Of a stretch of DNA of 64,000 nt, positions 4,262-60,956 are shown piece by piece (position 1 is the stretch's first letter; each line of letters opens with the position of its first letter). Below the pieces are notes generated by a model. It was not told the DNA's origin and made no database searches. It saw nothing but the letters and a program-made list of their open reading frames with translations. The position numbers and the translations under genes are program-made. The DNA is taken from contig NZTP01000066.1 of NCBI GenBank assembly GCA_002696485.1, forward strand, positions 90,061-154,060, read 5' to 3'. Source of the stretch: Altibacter sp. Lineage in GTDB: Bacteria; Bacteroidota; Bacteroidia; Flavobacteriales; Flavobacteriaceae.

Positions 4262-4304
4262 TGATATATATCATTTTACAAGACCTTTACCGCCACTATT
4301 TTTG
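4262..4304 (+). promoter_or_regulatory. Crp/Fnr-type class II promoter of hemN
   Basis: The palindrome TGATatatATCA (4262-4273, centre 4267.5) lies exactly 33 nt upstream of the centre of a perfect -7 element TATTTTTG (4297-4304). With transcription starting near 4308 the box would be close to -41, the class II activator position. Confidence 0.75.
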
Positions 4305-4324
4305 CGATATAAAAGTCGAAATAT

Positions 4325-5689
4325 ATGTGTGCATCCCTTATCACTAAATACAATGTCGCAGGGCCCCGCTATACAAGTTACCCTACCGTTCCGTATTGGG
4401 ACAATGACAGCTTTTCTTTAAAGCATTGGAAAGAAACCATAATGCAAAGTTTTAAAGAAAGTAACGAATCTCAAGGCATTAGCCTGTACATTCATTTACC
4501 TTTTTGTGAAAGCCTATGCACCTTTTGCGGCTGCAATAAGCGAATCACAAAGAATCACGATGTAGAGATCCCTTACTTGAAGTCGGTACTTAAAGAGCTT
4601 CAGTTGTATATCGATATGTTTGAAGAGCGCCCCATCATTAAAGAATTACACTTGGGCGGAGGTACTCCTACCTTCTTTACACCTCAAAACCTGCAAATGC
4701 TCTTGGAAGGACTTTTCCGAAGAACAAAAAAAGCAGCCAATGCCGACCTTAGCTTTGAAGGTCACCCCAACAATACTACCGAAGAACATTTAGACGTATT
4801 AGCGTCCTTTGGATTTACGCGTGTAAGCTACGGCGTACAGGACTATAACGAGACGGTGCAAAAGGCCATCCATCGCATCCAACCGTTCGAAAATGTGAAA
4901 AATGTGACCAAAGCAGCACGCAACGCCGGTTTTACCTCAGTAGGGCACGACATTATCTTCGGACTCCCTTTTCAGAAAAAAGAACATATTATTCATACCA
5001 TAGAGCGCACCAAAGAACTTATGCCGGACCGGATTGCGTTCTATAGCTATGCCCATGTACCGTGGCTCAAAGGAAATGGGCAACGAGGGTTTAAGGAAGA
5101 AAACTTACCTTCAGCCGAAGAAAAACGAGTGCAATACGAAACGGGAAAACGCATGTTGCTCGAAGCGGGCTATGTTGAAATTGGCATGGATCACTTCGCT
5201 TTGCCAACAGACAGCTTGTACAAAGCTTCGGTATCGAAAACCATTCACAGAAACTTTATGGGATACACCGACTCCAAAACCCAAGTGATGATTGGTTTGG
5301 GAGCTTCGGCCATTAGCGACAGTTGGTACGGTTTCGCACAAAACGAAAAAGGTGTGGAGGCGTATCAGGATCTCGTAGAAAAGAATATCATTCCCGTATA
5401 TCGCGGACATGTACTTACTAAGGAGGACTTAGTGATTCGCAAACACATTCTCAATCTCATGTGTACGCTAGAAACAAATTGGAAGCATCAGGAAGACTAT
5501 TTTAATGAACTGCCCGATGTATTGGTAAAATTGAAGGAGATCGAGAAGGACGGCTTGATCGAATTTCAAAAAAACGGACTGACAGTCACCGAAAAAGGGC
5601 GCCCCTTTGTTCGAAACATTTGCATGGCCTTTGACCTGTTGCTCCAACGAAAGCAACCCGAAACGCGACTATTTTCTATGACGATATAG
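4325..5689 (+). CDS. hemN: Oxygen-independent coproporphyrinogen III oxidase
   Basis: HemN converts coproporphyrinogen III to protoporphyrinogen IX without oxygen, using radical SAM chemistry in the cytosol. The 454-residue protein has the radical SAM cysteines Cys61, Cys65 and Cys68 in LPFCESLCTFCGC, with the family-typical fourth Cys at 70, then LHLGGGTPTF and the HemN C-terminal domain. The opening GPRYTSYPTVPYWD is characteristic of true HemN rather than HemW. Its promoter carries the TGATatatATCA box, fitting the known FNR/FixK-type control of hemN and the haem demand of the oxidase and reductases encoded nearby. A strong terminator follows. Confidence 0.95.
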   Translation: MCASLITKYNVAGPRYTSYPTVPYWDNDSFSLKHWKETIMQSFKESNESQGISLYIHLPFCESLCTFCGCNKRITKNHDVEIPYLKSVLKELQLYIDMFEERPIIKELHLGGGTPTFFTPQNLQMLLEGLFRRTKKAANADLSFEGHPNNTTEEHLDVLASFGFTRVSYGVQDYNETVQKAIHRIQPFENVKNVTKAARNAGFTSVGHDIIFGLPFQKKEHIIHTIERTKELMPDRIAFYSYAHVPWLKGNGQRGFKEENLPSAEEKRVQYETGKRMLLEAGYVEIGMDHFALPTDSLYKASVSKTIHRNFMGYTDSKTQVMIGLGASAISDSWYGFAQNEKGVEAYQDLVEKNIIPVYRGHVLTKEDLVIRKHILNLMCTLETNWKHQEDYFNELPDVLVKLKEIEKDGLIEFQKNGLTVTEKGRPFVRNICMAFDLLLQRKQPETRLFSMTI

Positions 5690-5713
5690 CGTTTGATTTT
5701 TAGTTTAATAGGT

Positions 5714-5747
5714 AAAAGGGAAGTCAATGACTTCCCTTTTTTTGTAT
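5714..5747 (+). terminator. Terminator after hemN
   Basis: Thirteen-base arms AAAAGGGAAGTCA (5714-5726) and TGACTTCCCTTTT (5728-5740) pair perfectly and run into a T-tract, a classic intrinsic terminator just after the hemN stop. Confidence 0.85.
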
Positions 5748-5792
5748 CTAGTAGTAAGATGAATATAACGGTCTATTTTATATCTTTAACTA

Positions 5793-6887
5793 ATGATACA
5801 TCCAAAGTACGGTCATTATATTCGGCAAATAATCGTTTTTGCGATTATCTGGCTCATTTTTGGAACGTTGTATGCCCTCTTGGAAGTAGGTCTATTAGGA
5901 AGTACTACCATTGCATATCCCACCACGGGTATCGATTATTACTTTGGAAATAACATCCTGTATTTCAGCTTAGGAAGTCTCCTCATGGGCGCCGTACAAG
6001 GCTCGATAGAAGTCCTCTGGCTTCACAAACAATTTTCAGACAAGCCTTTGTGGGTAAAGATCCTTTGGAAAAGCCTTATTTATTTGTTTCTTATCCTTTT
6101 ATTCTTATTGGTACTCACCGTAGTCACCAGTTGGGTGAATGCCCCTTCGGGTAGTTTGGATGCTTCTGCAACCGATAGAATACAGGGATTTATGGGTCAA
6201 TTCTCCTTTTGGTCCATTGTAATTTACGCCGGTGTCACCTTGAACATTGCCTTGATCTTTTCAGATATACAGGAATACATAGGTCGCCGATTGCTCTATA
6301 ATTTTTTACTCGGAAGATACCACCATCCTAATCAAGAGTGTAGGATCTTCATGTTCTTGGATATGAAATCATCCACCACCATTGCCGAAAATATGGGGCA
6401 CGCCCAGTATTTCCAACTTATAAAGACCTATTATGCTAATATGACGGATGCCATCCTTGAAACAGCTGGAGAGATCTATCAATATGTTGGGGATGAAATT
6501 GTGATCTCTTGGCCCGAAAAAAAAGGGCTCTATAAGAGCAATTGTATCCAATGTTTTTACAAAATTGAGAAAGACCTGTATAGAAATCGTCAAAAGTATA
6601 TGGAAGAGTTTGGCATTGTCCCATCCTTTAAAGCGGGTTTTCACATTGGAGAGGTCACTACCGGAGAGATCGGGATTATTAAGAAGGACATCATCTATAC
6701 GGGTGATGTCCTCAATACAACTGCCAGAATACAAGCCCAGTGCAATACCTACGATGCCAAGGCATTGATCTCGGAAGCATTGATGAACAAACTTCCGGCG
6801 TCCTCCTCCTTTACGTTTACCAAACTGGGTAAACTAAAACTTCGGGGAAAGAAAGATGACATCTTATTATATCGCATCGAGCTTTAA
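5793..6887 (+). CDS. Membrane-anchored class III adenylate/guanylate cyclase
   Basis: The 364-residue protein has four hydrophobic segments in the first 170 residues and a class III cyclase catalytic domain after about residue 185. Catalytic features are FMFLDMKSST with the first metal-binding Asp, YQYVGDEIVISWP with the second Asp, and YTGDVLNTTARIQ, which supplies the conserved Asn and Arg of the active site. It should make a cyclic nucleotide, but whether cAMP or cGMP is not certain. A TATCTTTA -7-like element (5781-5788) lies only a few bases before the ATG, so the transcript may be nearly leaderless. A link to the Crp/Fnr regulon of this region is possible but unproven. Confidence 0.85.
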   Translation: MIHPKYGHYIRQIIVFAIIWLIFGTLYALLEVGLLGSTTIAYPTTGIDYYFGNNILYFSLGSLLMGAVQGSIEVLWLHKQFSDKPLWVKILWKSLIYLFLILLFLLVLTVVTSWVNAPSGSLDASATDRIQGFMGQFSFWSIVIYAGVTLNIALIFSDIQEYIGRRLLYNFLLGRYHHPNQECRIFMFLDMKSSTTIAENMGHAQYFQLIKTYYANMTDAILETAGEIYQYVGDEIVISWPEKKGLYKSNCIQCFYKIEKDLYRNRQKYMEEFGIVPSFKAGFHIGEVTTGEIGIIKKDIIYTGDVLNTTARIQAQCNTYDAKALISEALMNKLPASSSFTFTKLGKLKLRGKKDDILLYRIEL

Positions 6888-11044: not shown

Positions 11045-13246
11045 TTAATCGTTTTGCGCTGAAACTTCAGCATTATTGGTTACTTTAATATCGGTTCCAA
11101 GACGTTGCAGGTATGCGATGATCGCTACCACTTCTCGATCCTTCATTTCAATAAAGGTCTCACCGTTCTCTTGTGCATACTGCTTGTCGGCTTCATAGGT
11201 TTTCACGAAATCGGGATCGCTGTACAGGTTTTGCTGAATGGTAGTACCTTGCGCATCCATCCACTCTTGCGCCCGTGCGATATCTTCTTCCGTATAAGGC
11301 ACCCCAAGAGACACCATGGCCTTCATCTTAGCTTCGGTCATGGATTTGTCAAGTTCACGTTGTATCAACCACTTATACGATGGCATAATTGAGCCTGAAG
11401 ACGTACTCTGCGGATCGTAGAAATGGTTCAAATGCCAGTTGTCGCTGTACTTTCCTCCTACCCTGAACAGATCGGGGCCGGTACGCTTGCTACCCCATAG
11501 GAACGGGTGATCGTAAACATATTCGCCGGACTTAGAATATTCCCCATAGCGCTCCACTTCACTTCTAAAAGGGCGGATCATTTGTGAATGACACGAAACA
11601 CACCCTTCCCGAATGTAAATATCACGGCCTTCCAGTTCTAAAGGGGTATACGGTTTTACACTGGAAATCTTAGGTACATACTCGTCTACCATAAGCGATG
11701 GAATGATCTGTACCATGCCTCCAATTAAGATCGCAATCGTAGCATAGATGGTAAGCTTTACCGGGCGACGCTCTAGCCATGTGTGATACCCCTCTTTGGC
11801 GGTTCGTTTCTTGGTTACTTTCTCAAGTGCTGCTGCTTCGGCAAGCTCATCGGTAACCTTGCTTCCTTGACGTACGGTCTGAACCACATTGTATAGAGAA
11901 ATAAAAGCACCTATAATAAACAAACTACCCCCAATGGCCCGCATCCAGTACATCGGCATGATCTCACTTACCGTCTCCAAGAAGTTTCCATAGGTGAGCG
12001 TGCCATCCGGATTGAATTGTTTCCACATGGAGGCTTGAACAAATCCGGCTACATACATTGGAAGTGCATACATTATGATCCCCAAGGTCCCGATCCAAAA
12101 ATGGAAGTTCGCCAATTTGATGGAATAGAGCTTTGTTTTAAATAATTTAGGCACCATCCAATACAGCATACCAAAGGTCAAGAATCCGTTCCACGCTAAT
12201 GCACCTACGTGAACATGCGCAATGATCCAATCGCTAAAGTGAGCGATGGCGTTCACGTTCTTCAAGGATAACATAGGTCCTTCGAAAGTAGCCATTCCAT
12301 ATCCCGTGATCGCAACGACCATGAACTTAAGAACAGGATCGGTTCGCACTTTATCCCAAGCTCCTCTCAAGGTCAAAAGACCATTAATCATACCACCCCA
12401 TGAGGGTGCGATCAACATCACCGAGAACGCAACACCTAAGTTCTGGGCCCAATCCGGCAATGCAGAGTATAAAAGGTGGTGAGGGCCTGCCCAGATATAG
12501 ATAAATATAAGCGACCAGAAGTGAACAATAGACAATTTATAGGAATACACAGGTCGATTGGCTGCCTTTGGGACAAAATAATACATCAAGCCTAAGAATG
12601 GTGTGGTCAAGAAAAATGCCACTGCATTATGACCGTACCACCATTGCACCAAAGCATCCTGAACGCCCGCAAAGGCCGAATAGCTCTTCAAGGCATTTAC
12701 AGGTATTTCAATGCTGTTCACGATATGGAGCACGGCCACAGTAACGAAAGTGGCTAGGTAGAACCAAATCGCCACGTATAAATGACGCTGTCTTCTTTTA
12801 AGAATTGTTCCAATGAGATTTGCCCCAAACGCCACCCAAATTAAGGCAATGGCAATATCGAAGGGCCACTCCAGTTCTGCATATTCTTTGGAAGTGGTAT
12901 ACCCTAGAGGTAAGGTGATCGCCGCCCCAACAATAATTAACTGCCAACCCCAAAAGTTGAGATTACTCAGGAAATCACTCCACATACGGGCTTTTAACAA
13001 GCGTTGGGAAGAATAATATACCCCTGCAAAAATGGCATTCCCTACAAAGGCAAAGATCACAGCATTGGTGTGCAAGGGACGTAAGCGTCCAAAGCTCAAC
13101 CACGAGATCCCATCGGTCATGTTAGGGAACATGAACATAAACGCGAGGATGAGCCCAATCGTCATACCAACGATCCCCCAAATAAGGGTGGCCCAAATAA
13201 ATTTCTTAACGACTTTATTGTCGTAATAGAATTGTTCTACTTTCAT
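11045..13246 (-). CDS. ccoN: Fused cbb3 oxidase catalytic subunit CcoN-CcoO
   Basis: The 733-residue protein joins the haem-copper catalytic subunit (about residues 1-480) to the monohaem cytochrome c subunit CcoO, the fusion normal in Bacteroidetes. CcoN ligands are all present: RPLHTN (low-spin haem), YGHNAVAF and AGPHHLLY (copper B), and IAHVHVG (both haems). The CcoO part has its membrane anchor, the haem site EGCVSCHSQMIRPF and a GPDLFRVG/MPSYKWL region. It catalyses high-affinity oxygen reduction in the inner membrane. Its start overlaps the ccoS stop by 3 nt. Confidence 0.97.
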   Translation of the reverse strand: MKVEQFYYDNKVVKKFIWATLIWGIVGMTIGLILAFMFMFPNMTDGISWLSFGRLRPLHTNAVIFAFVGNAIFAGVYYSSQRLLKARMWSDFLSNLNFWGWQLIIVGAAITLPLGYTTSKEYAELEWPFDIAIALIWVAFGANLIGTILKRRQRHLYVAIWFYLATFVTVAVLHIVNSIEIPVNALKSYSAFAGVQDALVQWWYGHNAVAFFLTTPFLGLMYYFVPKAANRPVYSYKLSIVHFWSLIFIYIWAGPHHLLYSALPDWAQNLGVAFSVMLIAPSWGGMINGLLTLRGAWDKVRTDPVLKFMVVAITGYGMATFEGPMLSLKNVNAIAHFSDWIIAHVHVGALAWNGFLTFGMLYWMVPKLFKTKLYSIKLANFHFWIGTLGIIMYALPMYVAGFVQASMWKQFNPDGTLTYGNFLETVSEIMPMYWMRAIGGSLFIIGAFISLYNVVQTVRQGSKVTDELAEAAALEKVTKKRTAKEGYHTWLERRPVKLTIYATIAILIGGMVQIIPSLMVDEYVPKISSVKPYTPLELEGRDIYIREGCVSCHSQMIRPFRSEVERYGEYSKSGEYVYDHPFLWGSKRTGPDLFRVGGKYSDNWHLNHFYDPQSTSSGSIMPSYKWLIQRELDKSMTEAKMKAMVSLGVPYTEEDIARAQEWMDAQGTTIQQNLYSDPDFVKTYEADKQYAQENGETFIEMKDREVVAIIAYLQRLGTDIKVTNNAEVSAQND

Positions 13247-13464
13247 AGTGATTCGTGTTTCTCTTGATTAGTGTTTGATTGTTTATTCGATTTTTTTTGG
13301 GTTGAAACGGTGGTGTCTTTAACTACTTCGTCTTCAAATAACATACGAACCGAAGGTGTGTACGTATCGTCGTACTGACCTCTGTTTACTGAAAAAATGA
13401 ATGCTGCGAAGAATACCAAAGCTACGATTACGCTTATGGTTAGTAATACATAAATAATACTCAT
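13243..13464 (-). CDS. ccoS: cbb3 oxidase maturation protein CcoS
   Basis: CcoS is a small membrane protein needed to insert cofactors into cbb3 oxidase. The 73-residue product opens MSIIYVLLTISVIVALVFFAAFIFSV, followed by NRGQYDDTYTPSVRMLFED, in which G-Q-[FY]-D-D is the family signature. A Ser/Thr/Lys-rich tail follows. It is the first gene of the cco operon and overlaps ccoNO. Confidence 0.9.
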   Translation of the reverse strand: MSIIYVLLTISVIVALVFFAAFIFSVNRGQYDDTYTPSVRMLFEDEVVKDTTVSTQKKSNKQSNTNQEKHESL

Positions 13465-13483: not shown

Positions 13484-13526
13484 TAAAATTAGTACTGCGT
13501 GGTTCCTTAAAATATGACATCGGTCA
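13484..13526 (-). promoter_or_regulatory. Crp/Fnr-type class II promoter of the ccoS-ccoNOQP operon
   Basis: The palindrome TGACatcgGTCA (13515-13526, centre 13520.5) stands exactly 33 nt upstream of the centre of TAATTTTA (minus strand, 13484-13491), which matches TAnnTTTG at five of six fixed positions. Confidence 0.7.
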
Positions 13527-13538: not shown

Positions 13539-15959
13539 TTAAAATCGTTTTAAGGGAGTGCTTACATATTGGGTTGCCACTGTGGTAAACACTACAATGG
13601 TTATTGAACTCAATGGCATTAGAATCGCAGCGATTACCGGCAGTAAGTTTCCTGTTACAGCAAAAGAAACACCTACAATATTGTATAGCAACGACAGCAG
13701 GAAACTCCATTTTATGATTTTGATTCCCTTCTTGGAGATAGAAAAGAACCGGGTGATATCTGAAAAACGGGAGGCATCCAAGATTCCATCACAGGCCGGG
13801 GAGAACACGTTTATATTTTCAGAAATAGCGATCCCTACGTTGCTTTGCTTTAAAGCCCCCGCATCGTTCAAGCCATCTCCAACCATCATTACGGTTCTTC
13901 CCGCTTCCTGAAGCGAGCGTATAAACTCCAGTTTATCGTTGGGCTTTTGGTTGAACAACAATTGGGTGCCTTTGGGTAACAGCTCTTGAAGCCGCTCTCG
14001 CTCTCCTTCATTATCGCCTGATAAAACAATAAGCTTCTTGTCCTTATGAAGGTCCTCGAAAACCCGCGCAACTCCTTCTCTATATTCATTGTGAAAGACA
14101 TAACATCCTTTATACACTTCATTGCTGCTTACATGCACCTTGGTTCTTGCCACAGCCGCTGCTTGTGGGGAGGTATCTGTTTTGGTGTCACTATCTACGA
14201 AACTGTACGATCCAACCTTCATACGAAGGTTATTGGAGCGTGCGTACATACCCAAGCCGGTCTCTTCTTCAAATTCATCTAAGGTTTGAATACCATTATT
14301 CTTCAGCAAGTCGTACAGAGCGCGACTTAACGGGTGATTGGACGCACGCAGTGTGTTGGTTAGCAAGGTCTCCTCTTCCGAAGAAAGTGCAATCCCTTCA
14401 TACGTGATCAAACTTTTCTTATGAGTAGTAAGGGTTCCGGTCTTGTCGAAAACCACGGTGTCTACTTTTGCGATCTGCTCGATCACCGAAGCTTCCTTAA
14501 GGTACAATTTATGCTTTCCGAAGATTCGCAATAAATTCCCCAAGGTGAAAGGAGACGCTAAGGCAATGGCACAGGGACACGCAACGATCAATACGGCTGT
14601 AAATACATTGAACGCCTGGATTGGATCGTACACCAACCAAAAAAGAGTCGATAGAAAAGCGATGGACAAAACCGCGACAGTAAACCGCCTGCTAATACTG
14701 TCTGTAAGTGATTGAAAAAGATTGGGCCGTTCTTTTTGGAACACCTCGTTACTCCACAATTGGGTTAAGTAACTTTGTTCTACGGGTTTTAACACCTCGA
14801 CTTCTAACACTCCTGCCATTTGTTTTCCGCCGGCAAAAAGTTTATCACCGCTTTCCTTGGTTACCGGTTCGGCCTCTCCGGTGACAAAACTGTAATCGAT
14901 CAAGGCATTCCCTTTAATAAGAATGGCATCTACCGGCAATAGTTCGTTATTTCGAATAAGTATACGATCGCCCTTTTTAACTTCGTAAACCTCTGTTTGC
15001 TCTTCGGAAAGATCTCCTTGGTCGTTTCTGTGCAAGCGGGTAACCGCAATGGGAAAATACGACTTGTAGTCGCGTTCAAAAGAAAGGAAGGCATAGGTTT
15101 TTTGCTGAAAAAATTTACCCAACAACAAAAAGAACACCAATCCGGTAAGGCTGTCGAAGAAGCCCGAACCCCAGTCGAAGACAATATCCATGGTACTTCG
15201 AATGAATAGCGCCGCGATTCCGATGGCGATAGGTATGTCTATATTTAAGAACCCCGATCGTATGCCCTTATAGGCCGCAGTAAAATAATCACGACCGGAG
15301 TAGAATACCACCGGAAGTGAAAAGGTAAACATCAACCATCTAAAAACATGTTTGAATTGTTCCAGCCAAAACTCTTCTTCTCCTCTTCCGAGATCGAAAT
15401 ATTCCGGAAACGAAAGGAACATCACATTTCCAAATGCAAAACCCGCAACACCCAACTTATAGATAAGGCTTCGGTTGTATTGTTTTTTCTTTTTATTCGA
15501 ATCTTCCAGCGAAATGTTGGGTTCATATCCAATACGGCTTAAAAGCAAGACAAGTTCCTTTAAGGAAGCCTTTTCAGAATGAAATGTGATTCGAACGGTT
15601 TTTTCCGGGAAATTTACTTGTGAGGTCGTTACGGCCGGATGCAATTTTTGAAGGTTTTCCAATACCCAAATACAAGAACTGCAATGAATAGAAGGTATTA
15701 CAAAGGATACAATTTGTGTATTCGTATCGTCGAATTCCAAAAGCTTTTGGACAATTGCCGCATTATCCAAGAAATCGAATTTGCCGGAAACTTCATTGGG
15801 ACTTGTCCCCGGAGTCTTCTCGAGATCGTAATAATATCCAAGGTCGTTCTCGTTAAGAATCTCAAAAACGGTTTTACAACCATGACAACAAAATGTTTTT
15901 TCGTCGTAGGGAATAACAGTGTCAAGACAAGAATCCCCACAATGGAAGCATGTATCCAT
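13539..15959 (-). CDS. ccoI: cbb3-associated copper-translocating P-type ATPase CcoI (FixI)
   Basis: CcoI is a P1B-type ATPase that exports copper for cbb3 oxidase assembly. The 806-residue protein starts with the Cys-rich CcoI-specific metal-binding region (CFHCGDSC, FCCHGCKTVFE), then a heavy-metal-associated domain (IHCSSCIW), transmembrane segments, VTGEAEPV, the membrane CPC motif (VACPCAIALASP), the phosphorylation site DKTGTLT and MVGDGLNDAGAL. It lies upstream of the cco operon in the same direction with its own box-containing promoter. Confidence 0.95.
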   Translation of the reverse strand: MDTCFHCGDSCLDTVIPYDEKTFCCHGCKTVFEILNENDLGYYYDLEKTPGTSPNEVSGKFDFLDNAAIVQKLLEFDDTNTQIVSFVIPSIHCSSCIWVLENLQKLHPAVTTSQVNFPEKTVRITFHSEKASLKELVLLLSRIGYEPNISLEDSNKKKKQYNRSLIYKLGVAGFAFGNVMFLSFPEYFDLGRGEEEFWLEQFKHVFRWLMFTFSLPVVFYSGRDYFTAAYKGIRSGFLNIDIPIAIGIAALFIRSTMDIVFDWGSGFFDSLTGLVFFLLLGKFFQQKTYAFLSFERDYKSYFPIAVTRLHRNDQGDLSEEQTEVYEVKKGDRILIRNNELLPVDAILIKGNALIDYSFVTGEAEPVTKESGDKLFAGGKQMAGVLEVEVLKPVEQSYLTQLWSNEVFQKERPNLFQSLTDSISRRFTVAVLSIAFLSTLFWLVYDPIQAFNVFTAVLIVACPCAIALASPFTLGNLLRIFGKHKLYLKEASVIEQIAKVDTVVFDKTGTLTTHKKSLITYEGIALSSEEETLLTNTLRASNHPLSRALYDLLKNNGIQTLDEFEEETGLGMYARSNNLRMKVGSYSFVDSDTKTDTSPQAAAVARTKVHVSSNEVYKGCYVFHNEYREGVARVFEDLHKDKKLIVLSGDNEGERERLQELLPKGTQLLFNQKPNDKLEFIRSLQEAGRTVMMVGDGLNDAGALKQSNVGIAISENINVFSPACDGILDASRFSDITRFFSISKKGIKIIKWSFLLSLLYNIVGVSFAVTGNLLPVIAAILMPLSSITIVVFTTVATQYVSTPLKRF

Positions 15960-15988: not shown

Positions 15989-16031
15989 CAAAGGTTAGGA
16001 TTATGAGATCTTTAAAAAATGATTTATGTCA
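15989..16031 (-). promoter_or_regulatory. Crp/Fnr-type class II promoter of ccoI
   Basis: The palindrome TGATttatGTCA (16020-16031, centre 16025.5) lies exactly 33 nt upstream of the centre of AACCTTTG (minus strand, 15989-15996), a five-of-six match to TAnnTTTG. Confidence 0.65.
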
Positions 16032-16053: not shown

Positions 16054-16266
16054 TTATTTGAGCGTGGTCTTTTTACAGGTATTAATCCCAAACGGCGCAT
16101 ATAAAGGACAAAAACTCACAAAACTGGTGATTACGAATACAGCTGCCAAAACCAAGAGGATGATTCCCAGCGTCCCTTCAATAACATTAGTGAAATACAA
16201 TACTAAAATCCCAAGTGCAATTAGTATGCGAAGCATGCGGTCTGTGCCGCCCATATTTTTTTTCAT
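16054..16266 (-). CDS. DUF2892 (YgaP-type transmembrane) small membrane protein
   Basis: The 70-residue protein opens MKKNMGGTDRMLRILIALG, matching the DUF2892 start N-[MV]-G-x2-[DE]-R-x-[IL]-R. It has two hydrophobic segments and a Cys near FVSFCPLYAPFGINTC, as in the membrane part of the YgaP sulfurtransferase and free-standing relatives (often annotated as inner membrane protein YgaP-like). Its exact role is unknown; a link to persulfide or respiratory functions is often assumed. It is divergent from ric and may be driven by the TGATaattATCA box at 16324-16335. Confidence 0.8.
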   Translation of the reverse strand: MKKNMGGTDRMLRILIALGILVLYFTNVIEGTLGIILLVLAAVFVITSFVSFCPLYAPFGINTCKKTTLK

Positions 16267-16292: not shown

Positions 16293-16335
16293 TAAATATC
16301 AGTCAAACAACACAATAGACCTATGATAATTATCA
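16293..16335 (-). promoter_or_regulatory. TGATaattATCA box, possibly serving the DUF2892 gene
   Basis: A perfect palindrome TGATaattATCA lies at 16324-16335 in the divergent region. At the fixed 33-nt spacing on the minus strand stands GATATTTA (16293-16300), only a four-of-six match to the -7 element, so the target gene is uncertain. Confidence 0.4.
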
Positions 16336-16379: not shown

Positions 16380-16422
16380 TGAGAAATATCATTTTTTACT
16401 CTGGGCCTAGTTTCGATTTTTG
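16380..16422 (+). promoter_or_regulatory. Crp/Fnr-type class II promoter of ric
   Basis: The box TGAGaaatATCA (16380-16391, centre 16385.5) lies exactly 33 nt upstream of the centre of GATTTTTG (16415-16422), a five-of-six -7 match. It is directly next to the AAAAGAT palindrome. Confidence 0.6.
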
Positions 16423-16442: not shown

Positions 16443-17165
16443 ATGACAATTACAAAAGATAAAACCGTTGCCGAGATCGTTACCGAAAACATCAAGGCAT
16501 CCCACGTTTTCAAAAAATACAACATTGACTTCTGCTGTGGTGGCGGTGTGACCATAGAAAAGGCCTGTGAGAAAAAAGGCATAGCCTACGAGACCTTGAA
16601 AAACGATCTTCTTCACCTCGATTCTTCCGTAGAAGATTCGAACGATTACAATAACTGGAAGCTTCCGTTCTTGATCGACTACATCGTGAACATCCATCAC
16701 CAATATGTGGAAGAGAACCTGCCGTTGTTATTGATGTACGCCTCTAAAGTGGCGAAGGTACATGGACATCATTATAGTGAAGTGATCGAAATCGATCGTC
16801 TTGTTCGTGAGATCGCTTCTGAACTCGCCGCACACATGAAAAAGGAAGAATTGATTCTCTTCCCTTTCATAAAGCAAATGGTACGAGCCGAAAAAGAAGG
16901 GACTCCCCTACCAAACAGAAATTTTGGAACGGTAGACAACCCCATCAAAATGATGGAACACGAACACGAGGAAGTGGGCCAGCTATTTAGAGAAATAGCA
17001 CAGCTTACCAATGAATACACACCCCCTTCTGGAGCCTGCAACACCTTTAAAGCCTTATACGACAAGTTAAATGAGTTTGAGCAGGACCTTCATACGCATA
17101 TTCATTTGGAGAACAATATTCTGCATCCCAAGGCCTTGCAGTTAGAACAGCGCCTGCAGTCTTAA
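16443..17165 (+). CDS. ric: Iron-sulphur cluster repair di-iron protein (RIC/ScdA/YtfE family)
   Basis: RIC repairs iron-sulphur clusters damaged by NO or oxidants in the cytosol. The 240-residue protein has the N-terminal ScdA_N (DUF542) domain with the signature KYNIDFCCGGGVTIEKAC, and a hemerythrin-like C-terminal domain with the di-iron His/Glu ligands spread over NIHHQYVEENLP, ELAAHMKKEELILFP, EHEHEEVG and HTHIHLENNILHPKA. It lies next to a divergent DUF2892 gene and before a degenerate haem-copper-type membrane protein. Upstream are two palindromes, one of each type found in this window, fitting joint low-oxygen and NO control. A terminator follows. Confidence 0.94.
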   Translation: MTITKDKTVAEIVTENIKASHVFKKYNIDFCCGGGVTIEKACEKKGIAYETLKNDLLHLDSSVEDSNDYNNWKLPFLIDYIVNIHHQYVEENLPLLLMYASKVAKVHGHHYSEVIEIDRLVREIASELAAHMKKEELILFPFIKQMVRAEKEGTPLPNRNFGTVDNPIKMMEHEHEEVGQLFREIAQLTNEYTPPSGACNTFKALYDKLNEFEQDLHTHIHLENNILHPKALQLEQRLQS

Positions 17166-23466: not shown

Positions 23467-23488
23467 TTTGAACAAATAAATACAGCGA

Positions 23489-44305: not shown

Positions 44306-44348
44306 TAAAAGTAGCGTAATTGGTCTTCCTTACATATGATATCCCTCA
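44306..44348 (-). promoter_or_regulatory. Crp/Fnr-type class II promoter of the lipoprotein gene
   Basis: The box TGATatccCTCA (44337-44348, centre 44342.5) lies exactly 33 nt upstream of the centre of TACTTTTA (minus strand, 44306-44313), a five-of-six -7 match. Confidence 0.55.
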
Positions 44349-44366: not shown

Positions 44367-45737
44367 TTAGATATAGATTTCTTTGATGTCGTATAACTTC
44401 GGAACGGAAACCCTCCACGCATACGTATCCTTCAGTTTTACACGCAATGCATGCTGTGCCGAAGGTTCTCCATGAATAAGAAAGGTTTCTTCAGGTATGT
44501 TCTTTATGTTGCTTGTCCAGTTTAACAGCCCTTGCTGATCTGCATGCGCCGAAAGACTTTCTATATGATCCACTGTTGCCTTGACCTCGTAATACTTTCC
44601 GAAGAACTTTATTTCATGCGTTTCTTCCAGCAACTGCCGTCCGCGGGTTCCTTCAGCTTGGTACCCCACCAATAATACTGTAGTATTCGTTTTATCTATC
44701 AACTGCTTCAGATAGGTCAAAACCCTTCCGCCGGTGACCATGCCGCTACCTGCTATCACCACTTTGGGCTGCGGATTATCTATGGTTTCCCATGTTTCTT
44801 TATAGGAGGTGATGATATTCATTCGGCTGTTCATGGCGTTGAAATCTTTCATAGGAAGTTTGTGCCAATCCGGAAATTTCTGAAACACAGATAATACATT
44901 GTTGCCCATGGGGCTATCTATAAATATTGGGATATTCGGTATTCGGTTTTTGTCGTACAATTTCCAAAGCAGAAACATCAACGTCTGTAATCGTTCAACC
45001 GCAAAGGAAGGAATGATCAAATTGCCGCGATTGTGTATGGTCCTGTTGATGAGTTCCACTAATTTTTCTGAAACACTTTCGGTGGGGTGTAATTTGTGTC
45101 CATAGGTGCTTTCCATAAAAAGATAGTCTGCCCATTGGGGTCTTTTCGGGGGAAAAAGGAGCAGATCGTTCTCTCTTCCCACATCACCGGAAAAGACGAA
45201 GATCTTTCCGAAGAGATCCAATTCGATAAAGGTCGCACCAATGATATGACCGTTATATTGGAATCTGTATTGTATGTTTTCTGAAAGTCGGTTCCAGCTA
45301 TCCTTTTCCTCTTTCTGAAAGAATCCAAGGGTGACTTCGGCATCCTCGACAGTATAGAATGGCTCTGCAGGAGAATGCTTAGAATAGCCTTCTTCGTTGG
45401 CTTTTTCGGCTTCCTCTTCATGGATCTTGGCACTGTCTAATAAAATAATCTTTGCAATTTCCAGCGTGGGTGCTGTACCTACGATCTTACCTCGAAATCC
45501 TTGCTTTACCAATCGTGGCAAATAGCCCGTATGATCTAAGTGACCATGTGTGAGCAGCACCACATCTATTTTTGAAACATCCACAGGCAAATATTCCCAG
45601 TTTTTTTCGCGCAATTCCTTCAGTCCTTGGAACATCCCACAATCAATAAGAATAGTCTGCTCGGGGGTTTCCAACAGAAATTTAGACCCCGTAACGGTTC
45701 CTGCTGCCCCTAAAAAATGCACCTTGATTTTTTTCAT
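44367..45737 (-). CDS. MBL-fold RNA-metabolising exonuclease (beta-CASP, CPSF/YSH1-like)
   Basis: The 456-residue cytosolic protein has the metallo-beta-lactamase motif LTHGHLDHTGYLPRL, a beta-CASP domain with IPSFAVERLQTLM, and the closing motifs SLSAHADQQGLLNW and FLIHGEPSAQHALR. This is the layout of bacterial RNA-processing MBL hydrolases. It overlaps the nuclease-fusion gene by 4 nt in an operon led by a USP with a regulon promoter, so RNA turnover is tied to low oxygen here. The RNA targets are unknown. Confidence 0.9.
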   Translation of the reverse strand: MKKIKVHFLGAAGTVTGSKFLLETPEQTILIDCGMFQGLKELREKNWEYLPVDVSKIDVVLLTHGHLDHTGYLPRLVKQGFRGKIVGTAPTLEIAKIILLDSAKIHEEEAEKANEEGYSKHSPAEPFYTVEDAEVTLGFFQKEEKDSWNRLSENIQYRFQYNGHIIGATFIELDLFGKIFVFSGDVGRENDLLLFPPKRPQWADYLFMESTYGHKLHPTESVSEKLVELINRTIHNRGNLIIPSFAVERLQTLMFLLWKLYDKNRIPNIPIFIDSPMGNNVLSVFQKFPDWHKLPMKDFNAMNSRMNIITSYKETWETIDNPQPKVVIAGSGMVTGGRVLTYLKQLIDKTNTTVLLVGYQAEGTRGRQLLEETHEIKFFGKYYEVKATVDHIESLSAHADQQGLLNWTSNIKNIPEETFLIHGEPSAQHALRVKLKDTYAWRVSVPKLYDIKEIYI

Positions 45738-46588
45738 GATGTACCTTTACAAAGCGAGGATATCTCTGCAAGAATTTTGACTTTCCTACCGTTGGAAATC
45801 CCCAAATGATCTAAGTAGAACGCATCATTGACCAACTCCCTGCAAAGTACCACATCCCGGCTCAGTAGAAACTGCTTTTCTCTAGAGGACAATAATGTAG
45901 AAACAGTAATTGGATATAAGCCCAAACGGTCAATACGTTCCTTTAAACTATGACCCTTCGGATAATCCCAGCTTAACAATACCAAGCCTGCACAGGTACC
46001 GTATTCGATCGCATCTGCTGTAAACCGTGTGTTGGTCACCACCCATCCTTCGTTAGGCGTGATCTTAGGATTCTTGAGCTCCATACCATACGCTTCAATA
46101 TCTTTAAAACGAGAATGGATATAAAGCGGCACTTTCACATTGCAATTGCGCCCTTCATCACTGTGGAATTTACATTCGGCTACGATATGTTGACCGTTCT
46201 TAAGAGCGACAACATCCACTTCATGATCTACACAACGTCCCTGTAGTATTTGCCCTGTTCGCGTAGCATATCCTGAATAGAACAACAGTGCTGCAATAAA
46301 TTTCTCGAATGGAAATCCTGTGGGGCCCAGTTCGTAGATCGCTTTCTTTAATTTGTATTTGGAGGCATATACCGATTTCTTTTTCTTTAGCAATGCGAAA
46401 GCCCTATTATAGATCTCTTTGGTAGAAATACCTTGGTAGAGTTCGTCACGAACAATATCGACAATCTCCTGTACGGCTTTATCATCGGCGCCGCTACGAT
46501 GTAAGGAATGTTTTAGTTTTTCCACAGAGAATCGCACTACCTCCCCGGAAGACTTGACCACATCAAATTTTTGATGGGATTCTTTCAT
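45734..46588 (-). CDS. ATP-cone domain fused to an Mrr-like restriction endonuclease domain
   Basis: The 284-residue protein starts with an ATP-cone (about residues 7-90: DVVKSSGEVVRFSVEKLKHSLHRSG..., the nucleotide-sensing domain of ribonucleotide reductases and NrdR). From about residue 95 it has a PD-(D/E)xK nuclease fold with DHEVDVVALKNGQHIVAECKFH, i.e. the Asp...Glu-x-Lys catalytic pattern of Mrr_cat. Such fusions are known in Bacteroidetes but their role is not. It lies 6 nt after a USP gene and overlaps the MBL RNase by 4 nt. No methyltransferase is nearby, so a classical restriction role is unlikely. Confidence 0.85.
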   Translation of the reverse strand: MKESHQKFDVVKSSGEVVRFSVEKLKHSLHRSGADDKAVQEIVDIVRDELYQGISTKEIYNRAFALLKKKKSVYASKYKLKKAIYELGPTGFPFEKFIAALLFYSGYATRTGQILQGRCVDHEVDVVALKNGQHIVAECKFHSDEGRNCNVKVPLYIHSRFKDIEAYGMELKNPKITPNEGWVVTNTRFTADAIEYGTCAGLVLLSWDYPKGHSLKERIDRLGLYPITVSTLLSSREKQFLLSRDVVLCRELVNDAFYLDHLGISNGRKVKILAEISSLCKGTS

Positions 46589-46594: not shown

Positions 46595-47401
46595 TTAATT
46601 ACGAAAATCATGGAGTGCGAGGACCGGTACTTTGGAGTACAATCCTAATTTTTTTACCAAAGGGTTTGAAAAAACACTTCCGAAGAAAAGGTGCTTTTTA
46701 TTAATAAAGGCGATCATCCCGCTCTTTCGTTCTTCAACAAATTGAAGAAGCCCTTCTTGAATGTCTATATTTTCCAACCAGTGAAAGCTAAACTGCGTAC
46801 CATCCAAACAGTCTTCCAACAGTTCTTTATTGTGTTGCTGTGCCTCGCTAAGTTTTTCTTTTTTCTGAACGTGTAGAATTCGTATAGGCGCATTGGTGAT
46901 CCTAGAAATTTCGAACAGGTGCTGCATTTCGCGCTTTTTGTAATGCGTTTTATAACTGGTGGGAAAAACGATCTCATTTGGATCTTGATATATTACATTA
47001 CCCGGGACTGCCAATACAGGGCAATTACGTATCTTTTCCATGGCATTTATGGTATTACTGCCAAAGAGCACATCGGTCGCATCGGTTTGACCTTTGGTTC
47101 CCATAACCACGAGTTCGATATCGTATTTTTCTATAGTCTGCTTTAGCGCTTTTAGAGGTAAAAGATCTAATGCTAACGTACTGTAGTTATGTCGCGGATG
47201 GATGGTTCGTATTTCTAAATGTTGTAAGGTCTTTTGAAGTTCCTTTTCGGCTTTTTCATTTGCGATCTTAGAGCGGGAATCCCCATAGGCATGTACCAGA
47301 TAGAATTCTACTTCTTCCCTTTTATAGAGATCGGCAGCATAGGCGATGGCGTTCCATGCGTTCTTGGAGAAATCTGTAGGGATCAAAACTTTCTTTTTCA
47401 T
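46595..47401 (-). CDS. Two-domain universal stress protein
   Basis: The 268-residue protein starts MKKKVLIPTDFSKNAWNAI. Domain one has the ATP motif MGTKGQTDATDVLFGSNT (G-x2-G-x9-G-S). Domain two is more divergent. It is the first gene of the USP, ATP-cone/nuclease, MBL-RNase operon and has a perfect box and perfect -7 element in front. Confidence 0.9.
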   Translation of the reverse strand: MKKKVLIPTDFSKNAWNAIAYAADLYKREEVEFYLVHAYGDSRSKIANEKAEKELQKTLQHLEIRTIHPRHNYSTLALDLLPLKALKQTIEKYDIELVVMGTKGQTDATDVLFGSNTINAMEKIRNCPVLAVPGNVIYQDPNEIVFPTSYKTHYKKREMQHLFEISRITNAPIRILHVQKKEKLSEAQQHNKELLEDCLDGTQFSFHWLENIDIQEGLLQFVEERKSGMIAFINKKHLFFGSVFSNPLVKKLGLYSKVPVLALHDFRN

Positions 47402-47495: not shown

Positions 47496-47538
47496 CAAAG
47501 ATATGCTTTTCAGCCTCCTCGTAATATGATTATAATCA
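47496..47538 (-). promoter_or_regulatory. Crp/Fnr-type class II promoter of the USP-nuclease-RNase operon
   Basis: The perfect palindrome TGATtataATCA (47527-47538, centre 47532.5) lies exactly 33 nt upstream of the centre of a perfect -7 element TATCTTTG (minus strand, 47496-47503). The leader is about 90 nt. Confidence 0.78.
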
Positions 47539-53883: not shown

Positions 53884-53927
53884 CAAACCTACGGTAGATA
53901 TATAGGTGGGTCAGTAACTAATGTTAC
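53884..53927 (-). promoter_or_regulatory. Promoter of the TolC-RND operon with GTAAC-N4-GTTAC palindrome
   Basis: The palindrome GTAACtaatGTTAC (53914-53927, centre 53920.5) lies exactly 33 nt upstream of the centre of a perfect -7 element TAGGTTTG (minus strand, 53884-53891). The geometry equals that of the TGAY-box promoters, but the motif differs, pointing to a second Crp/Fnr-family activator. Confidence 0.6.
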
Positions 53928-56446: not shown

Positions 56447-57295
56447 TTAATTTCGTGGTAAATTTTGTAGGACTAAAAAGGGTATTTGGATCTGTAAACC
56501 AATCTCTTCCACCTTGGAAGTATGTAATACATGCTCTAAATACGAATGACGTGAATTGGTCATTACCAACATATCAATCTTATGGTCTTTAATAAAGGTG
56601 TGTATCCTACTCGGAATATCTTTGCCTTCTTGTTGATGAAATTGTGTTTTATTGTCTGAAAGAAAACAGGACAGCAGGAATTTATTATCCTGTTGCCTAA
56701 ATGAAAGGGAGCTAAACGGTGATATGTACAGAAAATGAACGGTTGCAACAAACTTTTTGGCGATAGTGCTTACTAATTTCAGTTCACGTCGTTGGCAGGG
56801 TAACATATAATCTGTGGTATAGAGTATATGTTTGGGATGTACGTCGTGAAATCTTGAGGGAATTGCCAAAACCGGACATTTCACATACTTTATAACCTGA
56901 AGGGTATTACTCCCAAAAGTGATCTCCCGTTGGTCTGTTGCACCCTTGGTTCCCATCACAAGCACATCGGCATTTTCGGAGTCAACAAGGTCGTTCGATA
57001 CATCTACCAGACTCCCAAAGACCGAACGGAAATTGTACTCATGTCGTGGATTGGGAGATATACTAAGCATTTCCTTTAGAATAGCTTGTAGTTCTCTGTC
57101 CGAGCGTTCTTGCACCTTTTCTCTAAATGCTTCAAAGAGTTCACGAGACATTTCCAAGGTATTCTCATAGACCTCATCTGCATACGCATGAAAGATGATA
57201 AATTCGCTTCGCTCGTATTTGAACAATTCTAACGCATAGCGTATCGCATTCATGGCATTTTCAGAAAAATCGGTGGATATGAGTACTTTTCGCAT
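56447..57295 (-). CDS. Two-domain universal stress protein
   Basis: The 282-residue protein starts MRKVLISTDFSENAMNAIRY. Domain one carries MGTKGATDQREITFGSNT, the ATP-binding USP motif. The second half is a degenerate USP fold. It is first in a two-USP operon with a perfect box and -7 element. Confidence 0.9.
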   Translation of the reverse strand: MRKVLISTDFSENAMNAIRYALELFKYERSEFIIFHAYADEVYENTLEMSRELFEAFREKVQERSDRELQAILKEMLSISPNPRHEYNFRSVFGSLVDVSNDLVDSENADVLVMGTKGATDQREITFGSNTLQVIKYVKCPVLAIPSRFHDVHPKHILYTTDYMLPCQRRELKLVSTIAKKFVATVHFLYISPFSSLSFRQQDNKFLLSCFLSDNKTQFHQQEGKDIPSRIHTFIKDHKIDMLVMTNSRHSYLEHVLHTSKVEEIGLQIQIPFLVLQNLPRN

Positions 57296-57321: not shown

Positions 57322-57364
57322 CAAATATACACTGAACGTCTTGGAAAAAGAATGATAATTATCA
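57322..57364 (-). promoter_or_regulatory. Crp/Fnr-type class II promoter of the two-USP operon
   Basis: The perfect palindrome TGATaattATCA (57353-57364, centre 57358.5) lies exactly 33 nt upstream of the centre of a perfect -7 element TATATTTG (minus strand, 57322-57329). Confidence 0.78.
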
Positions 57365-58522: not shown

Positions 58523-58565
58523 CAAAAGTATCGGGAACGGGTCAGCTAAAGAATGACAATAATCA
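58523..58565 (-). promoter_or_regulatory. Crp/Fnr-type class II promoter of a universal stress protein gene
   Basis: The box TGACaataATCA (58554-58565, centre 58559.5) lies exactly 33 nt upstream of the centre of a perfect -7 element TACTTTTG (minus strand, 58523-58530). Confidence 0.75.
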
Positions 58566-58579
58566 GTTTTGCAAAAAAA

Positions 58580-59638
58580 CTATTCGATGGTCTCGAGACG
58601 GTCAAGATCGAGGATTCTAATGTTACGTCCTTCAATCTCTATGAGCCCCTCTTTTTTAAAACCGGACAAGGTTCTAATAAGGCTTTCGGTGGCGATCCCT
58701 GCCACACTTGCGAGATCATTCCGTGAAATTTTAATGGTGTCTTCAGATTTCTTATTCAATACAGCGGCAAATTGAAGAATGGTCTGTGCTGTTTTTTTCC
58801 GAACGGAACTATAGGCCATTTGCAGCAGTTGTTGTTTAATTTCTGAAAGATTATCGGTGAGCACATTCATTAACTCTAAGGATACATTCTTGCTTTTGCC
58901 CAACACTTCTTTTAATTCCATTTTAGAGATCGCAGCCAGTTCGGTATCTTCAACGGCTGTTGCCGACTCCTGATAGGGGAAGTTTTCTTCAAAAGAAGTA
59001 AACCCTAAGAAGTCATCTGCTTTGTGTAAAGCGGTAGTTAACTCCTTCCCGCTTTCATCCATTTTATGACTTTTCACGACGCCTTTTAGAATGAGAAAGA
59101 TATTATTCGAGTGGTCGCCTACGCTGTAGACAGGGTCTCCTTTTTTCACTTCGATGATCGTTCCATTATCGTCGAAGAAATTTTTTAGCTCGTGCAAATT
59201 GCGTACACTATCCTCTTCGCGGGCGTCGATGGCGGACTGTTGTGCCTCTTTTGCCATTGCCGATAGAATACTCGATTTGGCCAAGCGGCTTTCTATAGCA
59301 CTTAAAAGTTCATCTTCATCAAAAGGTTTTGTAAGGTAGTCATCGGCCCCCAGGTCCATTCCTTTTCTAATTTCCTTATGCTCGGTTTTGGCGGAAAGAA
59401 AGATAAAAGGGATCTGGCGTGTGTTCGGGTCGCTGGCGAGTGCCTGCAGCACCCCATACCCGTCCACCTCGGGCATCATGATATCGCATACAATAATATC
59501 CGGCTTTTCCTTCTTTGCCTGCTCAATACCGGCAGCCCCATTAGGAGCGGTTAGCACCCTGTAATGTGAAAGTTCCAGTAGCTCTGCCGTATTCTCTCGA
59601 AGGGCCATATCGTCTTCTATAATAAGTATGGTTTTCAT
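58580..59638 (-). CDS. Response regulator receiver fused to a Crp/Fnr-type sensor and HTH domain
   Basis: The 352-residue protein has a CheY-like receiver (about 1-120) with Asp9, Asp10, the phospho-acceptor Asp52 (CDIMMPEVDG) and the LTKPF Lys. A short linker leads to a cyclic-nucleotide-binding-like beta roll (about 150-260: VKKGDPVYSVGDHSNNIFLILKG). A Crp-type HTH follows (ISRNDLASVAGIATESLIRTLSGF) with the conserved Glu and Arg of the recognition helix. The four-Cys oxygen cluster of FNR is missing, so activity is probably set by phosphorylation from the kinase encoded 7 nt upstream. It is the only Crp/Fnr-type regulator in the window and is a good candidate activator for the TGAY-box promoters. 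Confidence 0.93.
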   Translation of the reverse strand: MKTILIIEDDMALRENTAELLELSHYRVLTAPNGAAGIEQAKKEKPDIIVCDIMMPEVDGYGVLQALASDPNTRQIPFIFLSAKTEHKEIRKGMDLGADDYLTKPFDEDELLSAIESRLAKSSILSAMAKEAQQSAIDAREEDSVRNLHELKNFFDDNGTIIEVKKGDPVYSVGDHSNNIFLILKGVVKSHKMDESGKELTTALHKADDFLGFTSFEENFPYQESATAVEDTELAAISKMELKEVLGKSKNVSLELMNVLTDNLSEIKQQLLQMAYSSVRKKTAQTILQFAAVLNKKSEDTIKISRNDLASVAGIATESLIRTLSGFKKEGLIEIEGRNIRILDLDRLETIE

Positions 59639-59645
59639 GCTGCTT

Positions 59646-60875
59646 CTAATTATGCGTAATAGGAAGAACCACGGTAAAGGAACTTCCTTTATTTTCCTTA
59701 CTGCTAAACATTATGGTACCTCCTAAGTTCTCCAAATGACTCTTTACAATGTTAAGACCAATTCCGGTGCCTTGATCCAAAAGGGCATTCTCCGCCCTAA
59801 AGTACCTGTTAAATATAAACTTTTGTTCTTTTTCGGGGATGCCCATGCCTTCATCAGTTATCATAATTGATAAATTGTCTTTGTTCAATGCTACCTGCAC
59901 GTCGATCACCGTATGCTCCGGAGAATACTTGATCGCATTATTGATCAAATTCGTTAAGATGAGCTCAAGGATCTTCTCGTCGAACTCGATCACGATGTCA
60001 TCAATGTTGTGAGGATAATTGATCCTCTGTCCGTCCTTGAGCAACATGTTAGCATCATAGATCACCTCGTTGATCACCTTACTCAATGGGAACTCACTAA
60101 ACTTGTAAGTAGCTTTTCCTGTTTCAATACGCTCTATGGACAGGAAATCATCCAAGATGTTATTGAGGTACTTCACTTTACTTTGAATGGTCTTTAAGTG
60201 CTTTTCCCGCTTCTCTTGTTGTTCGGTCTGGGTATATTTACGTGCCAAAGTAGCAGAAGTGAGGATACCGCTTAAGGGTGTTTTAAACTCGTGTGAGACC
60301 AACGAAAGGAATTTTGTCTTTAGCTCGTTCAATTCACGTTCTTTTTGGAGCGATTCTTTCATCTTGTTCTCGGCCTCTTTTCGCTTAATGACCTCATCTT
60401 TAAGCTCCATGATCGTACTGTGAAGTTCCTTGGTACGTAAATCGATCCTTTGCTCCAAACTTTCATTAAGGGTGCGTATCTCTTTCTCTTGTTGTTTCCG
60501 TATGGAAATATCACTCACCAAAGCCATTACGTACGTACGCTCATTGATCTCAAAAGGGTTGAGACCGGCTTCCACGGGAAAGATACTGCCATCTTTGCGC
60601 AGTCCATACAGATCGCGTCCATGACCCATTTGCCGCGTGTCACTATTCTCTACGAAAGCTTCAAAATGACCCTCATGCTTTTTGTGGTATTCCTTCGGAA
60701 TAAGAAGATTTAAGTGTTGCCCGAGGAGTTCGTCCCCCTCGTACCCAAACATAGCGTTGGCAGCCCCGTTTGAAGCAACCACTTCCTGACGGGCATTCAC
60801 GATAATGATTCCTTCAGAAATAGCTTCAGAAAGAAGTTTGAAAATGGTATCTTTTTTTTCTTCAAAAACCTTCAT
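59646..60875 (-). CDS. PAS-domain sensor histidine kinase, FixL-like
   Basis: The soluble kinase (409 residues from MKVFEEKKDTIF) has one PAS domain (about 10-125), a coiled coil, the phospho-acceptor LVSHEFKTPLSG and ATPase motifs (NLINNAIKYSPEH, DEGMGIP, GTGIGLNIVKSHL). In the PAS domain, P-x2-Y-x3-His67-E-G and Arg87 reproduce the spacing of the FixL haem-pocket His and oxygen-binding Arg (20 residues apart). The same pattern also occurs in non-haem PAS domains, so haem binding is only possible. I prefer the ATG at 60875; an upstream ATG at 60926 would place the regulon box inside the coding part. It forms an operon with the response regulator. Confidence 0.88.
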   Translation of the reverse strand: MKVFEEKKDTIFKLLSEAISEGIIIVNARQEVVASNGAANAMFGYEGDELLGQHLNLLIPKEYHKKHEGHFEAFVENSDTRQMGHGRDLYGLRKDGSIFPVEAGLNPFEINERTYVMALVSDISIRKQQEKEIRTLNESLEQRIDLRTKELHSTIMELKDEVIKRKEAENKMKESLQKERELNELKTKFLSLVSHEFKTPLSGILTSATLARKYTQTEQQEKREKHLKTIQSKVKYLNNILDDFLSIERIETGKATYKFSEFPLSKVINEVIYDANMLLKDGQRINYPHNIDDIVIEFDEKILELILTNLINNAIKYSPEHTVIDVQVALNKDNLSIMITDEGMGIPEKEQKFIFNRYFRAENALLDQGTGIGLNIVKSHLENLGGTIMFSSKENKGSSFTVVLPITHN

Positions 60876-60880
60876 TCCCC

Positions 60881-60925
60881 CAAAAGTAATCATTTTAATA
60901 GAGTTTTTGGAACTGATTTTTATCA
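60881..60925 (-). promoter_or_regulatory. Possible box promoter of the kinase-regulator operon
   Basis: On the minus strand TACTTTTG (60881-60888), a perfect -7 element, lies 35 nt from the centre of the TGATttttATCA box, two more than usual, and only 6 nt from the chosen start codon. Autoregulation is possible but not certain. Confidence 0.4.
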
Positions 60926-60956
60926 TAAAACAAACCGGTAGAATTCGTTATTTTTA
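60914..60956 (+). promoter_or_regulatory. Crp/Fnr-type class II promoter of the TerB-like gene
   Basis: The perfect palindrome TGATttttATCA (60914-60925, centre 60919.5) lies exactly 33 nt upstream of the centre of TATTTTTA (60949-60956), a five-of-six -7 match. Confidence 0.65.

Follow-up and report, generated by a model that had tools for sequence, protein, structure and literature searches.

We analysed a stretch of 64,000 nucleotides from an Altibacter sp. assembly (3.02 Mb in 94 contigs, 95.8% complete), comprising positions 90061–154060 of contig NZTP01000066.1 and hereafter called the window. Many transcription units in the window are preceded by the same composite promoter, in which a TGAYN4RTCA box is followed by a TAnnTTTG −7 element at a distance of 33 nt, measured centre to centre. 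The window also encodes a fusion of a receiver domain with a Crp-type protein (REC-Crp fusion), the proposed reader of the box, next to a FixL-like PAS histidine kinase. Below, the −7 element is scored by its six fixed positions.

58580–59638 (−): REC–cNMP–HTH_Crp fusion of 352 aa, proposed box reader; Pfam domains Response_reg, cNMP_binding and HTH_Crp_2; receiver Asp52.
59646–60926 (−): FixL-like PAS histidine kinase, from Pfam; translation could begin at the ATG at 60926 or at one near 60875.
4262–4304 (+): composite before hemN (4325–5689); box perfect, −7 6/6.
13484–13526 (−): composite before ccoS/FixS (13246–13464) and the cco genes; box perfect, −7 5/6.
15989–16031 (−): composite before ccoI (13539–15959); box perfect, −7 5/6.
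16293–16335 (−): probable additional composite, ahead of a YgaP-like protein of 70 aa (16054–16266); box perfect, spacing 33, −7 4/6.
16380–16422 (+): composite before ric (16443–17165); box TGAG, −7 5/6; weak alone.
21590–21632 (−): composite before nadA (20641–21573); box perfect, −7 6/6.
23489–23531 (−): composite before a cytochrome c/COX1 (NorC/NorB-like) pair (21705–23475); box perfect, −7 5/6.
23576–23618 (+): composite before an ADP-forming CoA ligase (23641–25719); box perfect, −7 5/6.
31119–31162 (−): box before norC (30624–31073); spacing 34; box perfect, −7 5/6.
35044–35086 (−): composite before acetyl-CoA hydrolase (33731–35032); box TGAG, −7 5/6; weak alone.
42162–42204 (−): composite before the nos operon (cytochrome c 41629–42135, nosZ 38976–40937); box perfect, −7 6/6; same position in a related genome (G281).
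42689–42731 (+): composite before a universal stress protein (USP) gene (42747–43577); box perfect, −7 6/6.
44306–44348 (−): composite before the gene at 43583–44263; box TGAG, −7 5/6; weak alone.
47496–47538 (−): composite before a USP gene (46595–47401); box perfect, −7 6/6.
57322–57364 (−): composite before a USP gene (56447–57295); box perfect, −7 6/6.
58523–58565 (−): composite behind the fusion gene and ahead of the USP gene that follows; box perfect, −7 6/6.
60914–60956 (+): composite before the gene at 60982–61386; box perfect, −7 5/6; relative to the kinase, the same box stands before its start or within it.

A preliminary description of the window had proposed that fifteen units share this arrangement. 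In all 15 listed units the box centre was indeed exactly 33 nt from the centre of TAnnTTTG; seven −7 elements matched all six positions and eight matched five, and norC (31162, −) had the reported spacing of 34. The TGAY box ascribed to all 15 was found in perfect form in 12, whereas three boxes (16380, 35086 and 44348) read TGAG. The gene labels ‘TerB-like’ and ‘lipoprotein’ had no Pfam match above the cut-off. In total, the window contained 16 perfect palindromes, of which 13 had a spacing of 33 (12 with at most one mismatch in the −7 element) and one a spacing of 34. The remaining two (30196 and 37154) lay in coding DNA without such a −7 element, and we rejected the idea that every palindrome is a site. 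Nor did we count as a unit the match at 45532, which has an exact −7 element and one box mismatch and is located inside a gene. The YgaP-like gene behind the composite at 16335 (−) is probably a sixteenth unit, missed in the preliminary description, because an exact composite precedes a YgaP-like_TM gene (PF11127) in another genome (G241).

We compared the counts at 33 nt with those at the 55 other distances between 15 and 70 nt, and with 200 dinucleotide shuffles of 1-kb blocks. With a perfect box and at most one mismatch in the −7 element, there were 12 composites at 33 nt, against a mean of 0.27 at other distances and 0.08 in the shuffles. When one box mismatch was also allowed, the count at 33 nt rose to 16, against a mean of 2.15 elsewhere (7 at 35 nt) and 1.57 in the shuffles (maximum 7). 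Since these relaxed counts reached 7 both at 35 nt and in shuffles, the three TGAG sites are individually insecure, and the membership of ric, acetyl-CoA hydrolase and the 43583 gene rests on context.

A genome scan compared with shuffled sequences was the check that the preliminary description had named beforehand, and its outcome did not refute the shared arrangement. We found nine exact composites in the genome and none with the reversed composite model that served as genome-wide control. Seven of the nine were located in the window, which makes up 2.1% of the genome, as were all seven exact composites of a refined form that requires a T after the box (T-refined). With up to two mismatches, 112 matches were found against 82 for the reversed control. 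Hence, the signal is carried by near-exact matches only, and relaxed matching was rejected as a useful predictor. The latter comparison is what an origin by chance, from AT-rich DNA and loose consensus matching, can appeal to. Such an origin is highly improbable, because exact composites numbered 9 against 0 in this genome and 446 against 9 in 56 whole genomes, and because the spacing formed a single sharp peak, with no equal counts of exact matches at other spacings or in controls.

The spacing was also investigated, with exact boxes and exact −7 elements, in 1.49 Mb of sequence from 80 named loci that surround regulator homologues. Of these loci, 62 were close to the fusion of the window and 18 fell outside this close group; the closest named relatives of the regulator came from Aquimarina, Bizionia, Algibacter and other Flavobacteriaceae records. 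A spacing of 33 occurred 113 times, while any other distance between 15 and 70 occurred at most five times, except for 55 (11 times). The consensus of the 112 sites with enough flank was TGAYnnnnRTCAT, mostly after A or C and followed by a T-rich stretch. In a published start-site map of Flavobacterium psychrophilum, TAnnTTTG is placed at −12 to −5 (PMC9723704), and with a spacing of 33 nt the centre of the box is therefore at −41.5. The position of the box is thus that of a class II regulator site, with the position of the −7 element taken from the map of a related species. This agrees with the earlier proposal of a shared class II architecture with the box near −41, and 33 was the sole strong spacing in close relatives. 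The promoter would be of the Bacteroidetes sigma-A type (TAnnTTTG), with its upstream element replaced by a Crp/FNR-type site at −41.5. These sequence patterns support a class II activator promoter, at which activation by the bound regulator is predicted. Like class II Crp/FNR promoters, it has its activator site at −41.5, where this overlaps with the upstream element of the promoter; unlike these, it has the Bacteroidetes −7 element TAnnTTTG and a strict single spacing.

All 11 sites at distance 55 belonged to the more distant loci, eight of the 18 (L094, L096, L103, L105, L106, L107, L108 and L111). Here, a second, weaker box stood exactly 22 bp downstream of the distance-55 box, i.e. at −41.5, with a mean of 6.73 of 8 positions matched, compared with at most 3.91 at other offsets from 13 to 39. 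In the distant loci, 11 of the 14 TAnnTTTG elements with a −41.5 box also had a box at −63.5, compared with one of 129 among the 62 close ones. Class III promoters are those in which two activator sites stand in tandem. The distant loci resemble these in their second box 22 bp upstream, at −63.5, in contrast to the close relatives (1/129) and to the window, where we found no perfect box with a perfect −7 element at a distance of 55.

The fusion has a cNMP-binding fold according to Pfam, and its residues D9, D52, K104, E318 and R322 were invariant in 35 homologues. Glu and Arg have their role in the recognition helix of FNR-type proteins. Both are present in the recognition helix of the fusion, ATESLIR, as E318 and R322. 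A TES.IR helix occurred in 24 of 26 stand-alone Crp proteins from the genome comparison below, and the 44 listed of the 61 close fusions had the same helix or [TS]E[ST][LF]IR. The only cysteine of the fusion is residue 51, and it therefore lacks an iron–sulfur (Fe–S) site of the FNR type; the N-terminal CxxC columns were without Cys in 81 of 81 fusions. These 81 fusions formed one branch of the tree (support 0.995). Among the 25 of 108 NCBIfam matches listed for the fusion, none reached the cut-off. A search with the HTH_Crp_2 profile yielded two Crp-family proteins and no FNR-type protein in this 95.8% complete assembly. The box reader of this genome is probably neither FNR nor FixK. The preliminary description had pointed to FNR/FixK; its class II position stands, but the Crp protein with an FNR-type helix is here a receiver–Crp fusion without an FNR-type Fe–S site, and the earlier interpretation is therefore partly supported. 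Searches of open-access literature returned no title on a REC-Crp/FixL pair from Bacteroidetes; Galperin’s response-regulator surveys of 2006 and 2010 may include the fusion.

A homologue of the neighbouring kinase ended within 400 bp before the fusion gene in 73 of the 80 loci. In comparison with solved structures, its PAS domain matched 13 sequences at E ≤ 1e-9, all of them FixL or DosP/YddU haem sensors. The kinase of the window has a FixL-type PAS domain, with a His and an Arg that align with the haem His/Arg of FixL, and no obvious transmembrane stretch was found in it. A comparison of the FixL His column with the other PAS_9 domains of the genome was uninformative, since there were only three others, one of which was read in the wrong frame. 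On the strand of the kinase (60875–60926, −), the common box is found 35 nt from a perfect TACTTTTG that ends directly before a possible ATG. From this layout, the transcript of the kinase may be almost leaderless, or the kinase may start elsewhere.

The composite was also linked to the fusion by position. With at most one mismatch allowed in the box and one in the −7 element, and ties in mismatches broken towards 33, 54 of the 62 close loci had a composite at exactly 33 nt directly after the gene of the fusion (40 exact), and two more loci had a spacing of 32. Over all 80 loci, 60 had a spacing of 33, four of 32, one of 30 and one of 36, and 14 had none. A USP homologue was present in the examined flank of 65 of the 80 loci. 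Furthermore, all 24 exact composites of the relatives G241 and G281 were traced to the next open reading frame (ORF). Their targets included hemN (2), FixS (2), USP genes (4, one weak) and a cytochrome c resembling the one in the nos operon, as well as genes for PFL-like, POR, PTA, FTHFS, NapD, OsmC, thioredoxin (2) and YgaP-like proteins. The others preceded genes for a Glu/Leu-type dehydrogenase and a pectate lyase/pectinesterase, three ORFs that matched no Pfam family and one unscanned ORF. Altogether, 19 of the 24 preceded genes that were the same as, or fitted, the set in the window. Elsewhere in the genome of the window, composites with at most one mismatch preceded, among others, genes for a ribosome-hibernation protein of the S30AE type, an AhpC-type peroxiredoxin, a phosphofructokinase and a pyridine-nucleotide oxidoreductase.

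Together, we consider it likely that the fusion at 58580–59638 reads the 33-nt class II composite, and that the FixL-like PAS kinase, which most likely senses low oxygen, controls the fusion. The kinase would sense low oxygen, probably via a FixL-type haem, and would phosphorylate Asp52 of the fusion. The phosphorylated fusion would then bind TGAYN4RTCA as a dimer and recruit RNA polymerase to the genes for the cbb3 oxidase, haem, NO/N2O reduction, anaerobic metabolism and USPs. The scheme would follow the rhizobial FixL–FixJ–FixK cascade, with a single protein in the roles of FixJ and FixK.

Several observations weigh against this proposal. The computation establishes the promoter architecture, its connection with this family of regulators, the adjacent kinase and the lack of an FNR-type hit in the assembly, whereas haem, oxygen as the signal, phosphotransfer and activation are inferred. 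In the homologues of the kinase, the FixL His column held H in 66 of 74 rows (70 ungapped), of which at least three (L092, L100 and L110) were not PAS-like there, and the FixL-like Arg was kept in 41 of 71 ungapped rows. Six of the 62 close loci had no composite behind the fusion. Moreover, composites occurred in all 21 examined genomes of the family that lack the fusion; the fusion is therefore not required for them. That the composite is private to the fusion was rejected, as it was present in 56 of 56 genomes, including these 21. In a census of 296 genomes of the order, the fusion had matches at 1e-30 in 38, and in 35 of these the match covered almost the full length. Of the 27 genomes with the fusion within the family, 19 also have an FNR-like protein (44–77% identity). 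The other eight, including that of the window, are without one, and two of these (G072 and G206) contain a different stand-alone Crp protein, with 33% identity. An FNR gene could also be missing from the incomplete assembly. T-refined composites were counted in 80 genomes, in which the reversed control occurred only twice. Their number was 39 in the eight genomes with only the fusion (27.5 Mb), 66 in the six genomes searched of the 19 with both proteins, 31 in the six searched of the 21 family members with only FNR, and 67 in 24 genomes with only FNR elsewhere in the order (75.7 Mb), three of which had no composite. In 36 genomes with neither protein (50.1 Mb) only three were found, and the 39 of the fusion-only genomes, set against these three, speak for the proposal; the 36 genomes are small (0.3–2.0 Mb), which is a real confounder. 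They are absent from the fusion matches and have no FNR-like match at 1e-40, although four have weaker ones.

Some of these observations favour another reader, namely a cysteine-bearing FNR of the CEQC type, with a minor role for the fusion and an FNR gene that is missing from the incomplete assembly. Such a stand-alone Crp protein was present, together with the same composites, in all 21 family genomes without the fusion; the four cysteine columns held Cys in 24, 24, 25 and 24 of the 26 stand-alone proteins (three from fusion-bearing genomes). The 19 genomes with both proteins and the completeness of 95.8% also leave room for it. Yet we consider this unlikely, because the eight fusion genomes without FNR, from five genera, keep their composites; besides the genome of the window, six are 99–100% complete and two more 99%. 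That 54 of 62 loci have a composite next to the gene of the fusion also argues for the fusion.

Alternatively, the fusion reads the box, but a kinase without haem senses NO, redox or energy state rather than oxygen. The genes for NO/N2O reduction and ric in the set would fit this, as would the poor conservation of the FixL-type Arg across homologues. This is doubtful as well, in view of the alignment of the His and Arg of the window’s kinase with FixL and of the haem sensors that made up all 13 structural matches. In addition, oxygen limitation or FixK induces cbb3 oxidase and hemN elsewhere: genes for cbb3 oxidase and haem are induced in F. psychrophilum when oxygen is limiting (PMC9723704), and in Alphaproteobacteria the cco, hem and nos genes have FnrN/FixK sites upstream (PMC4999443).

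The fusion regulator proposed here, controlled by its kinase, can be compared with several known systems. FixJ consists of a receiver domain and a LuxR-type helix-turn-helix. The receiver of the fusion is joined to a cNMP_binding and HTH_Crp_2 output instead, which sets it apart from FixJ. It also differs from FixK, which likewise lacks Fe–S cysteines but stands alone. With a receiver–Crp fusion, separate FixJ and FixK proteins are not needed. The FixL–FixJ–FixK system of Alphaproteobacteria (PMC4999443) shares the FixL-type PAS kinase, the Crp-type protein without Fe–S cysteines and the cco, hem and nos targets; here, one REC-Crp protein takes the place of FixJ and FixK, at a Bacteroidota promoter. 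FNR and the CEQC stand-alone proteins of the relatives are similar in their TES.IR-type helix and in the same composites in fusion-less genomes, but they lack a receiver domain and have cysteines conserved in four columns, and the fusions form their own branch.

We lean towards a broader interpretation in which Bacteroidota have a one-step version of FixL–FixJ–FixK. A FixL-like kinase would act directly on the REC-Crp fusion, a monophyletic group, which would take over from the cysteine-bearing FNR, or work alongside it, on a conserved −41.5 promoter. The oxygen sensor would have been swapped by lineage while the regulon was kept, and the layout would vary between a single −41.5 box in close relatives and tandem boxes at −63.5 and −41.5 in distant ones (e.g. 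Mucilaginibacter, Rudanella and Chitinophagales records). If true, this would account for the switch of many Flavobacteriaceae to microaerobic respiration and to the Sec-dependent nitrous oxide reductase, through which the greenhouse gas N2O is removed. With FNR alone, the fusion alone or both in related genomes, it would also be a natural example of one sensor taking the place of another while the regulon stays fixed. Candidate low-oxygen genes of the order can be predicted simply from the exact composite.

The second Crp protein of the genome (L002) has a different helix, RVVVSR, and TAAC boxes of its own, and was rejected as a reader of the TGA box. Near its gene (L148), two exact TAACN4GTTA boxes stand 33 nt from TAnnTTTG (3688–3730 and 2813–2855, −), followed by a permease-like gene and a metallo-beta-lactamase/rhodanese gene. 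A similar site in the window, assigned to this protein, serves as an internal control:

53884–53926 (−): TAACN4GTTA composite with a spacing of 33 nt, before efflux genes.

The 42 TAAC boxes in loci L033–L112 showed no spacing peak, so that the assignment rests on this genome alone. Judging from these sites, the two Crp proteins appear to share the 33-nt layout but to differ in their box; the TAAC family is possibly a sulfur-related regulon.

Near stand-alone FNR-like genes (L113–L136, L140 and L141), boxes were also found 19–21 nt from TAnnTTTG in 14 cases, against four at 33 nt, in counts that are inflated by the kinship of these loci. A box at 19–21 nt would fit self-repression.

Several other genes accompany the composites. 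The nitrous oxide reductase (38976–40937, −) matches the Sec-dependent NosZ model TIGR04246. A gene for an Rrf2-family regulator (42271–42669, +) lies between the nos operon and a USP gene, beside two composites; as a possible NO or Fe–S sensor, it could provide a second input. Behind hemN, the gene at 5793–6887 (+) encodes a protein with a nucleotide cyclase catalytic domain. Genes for an ATP-cone protein and a metallo-beta-lactamase/beta-CASP protein are adjacent at 44367–46588 (−), behind a USP gene, and their homologues were present in the flanks of 21 and 22 of the 80 fusion loci, respectively.

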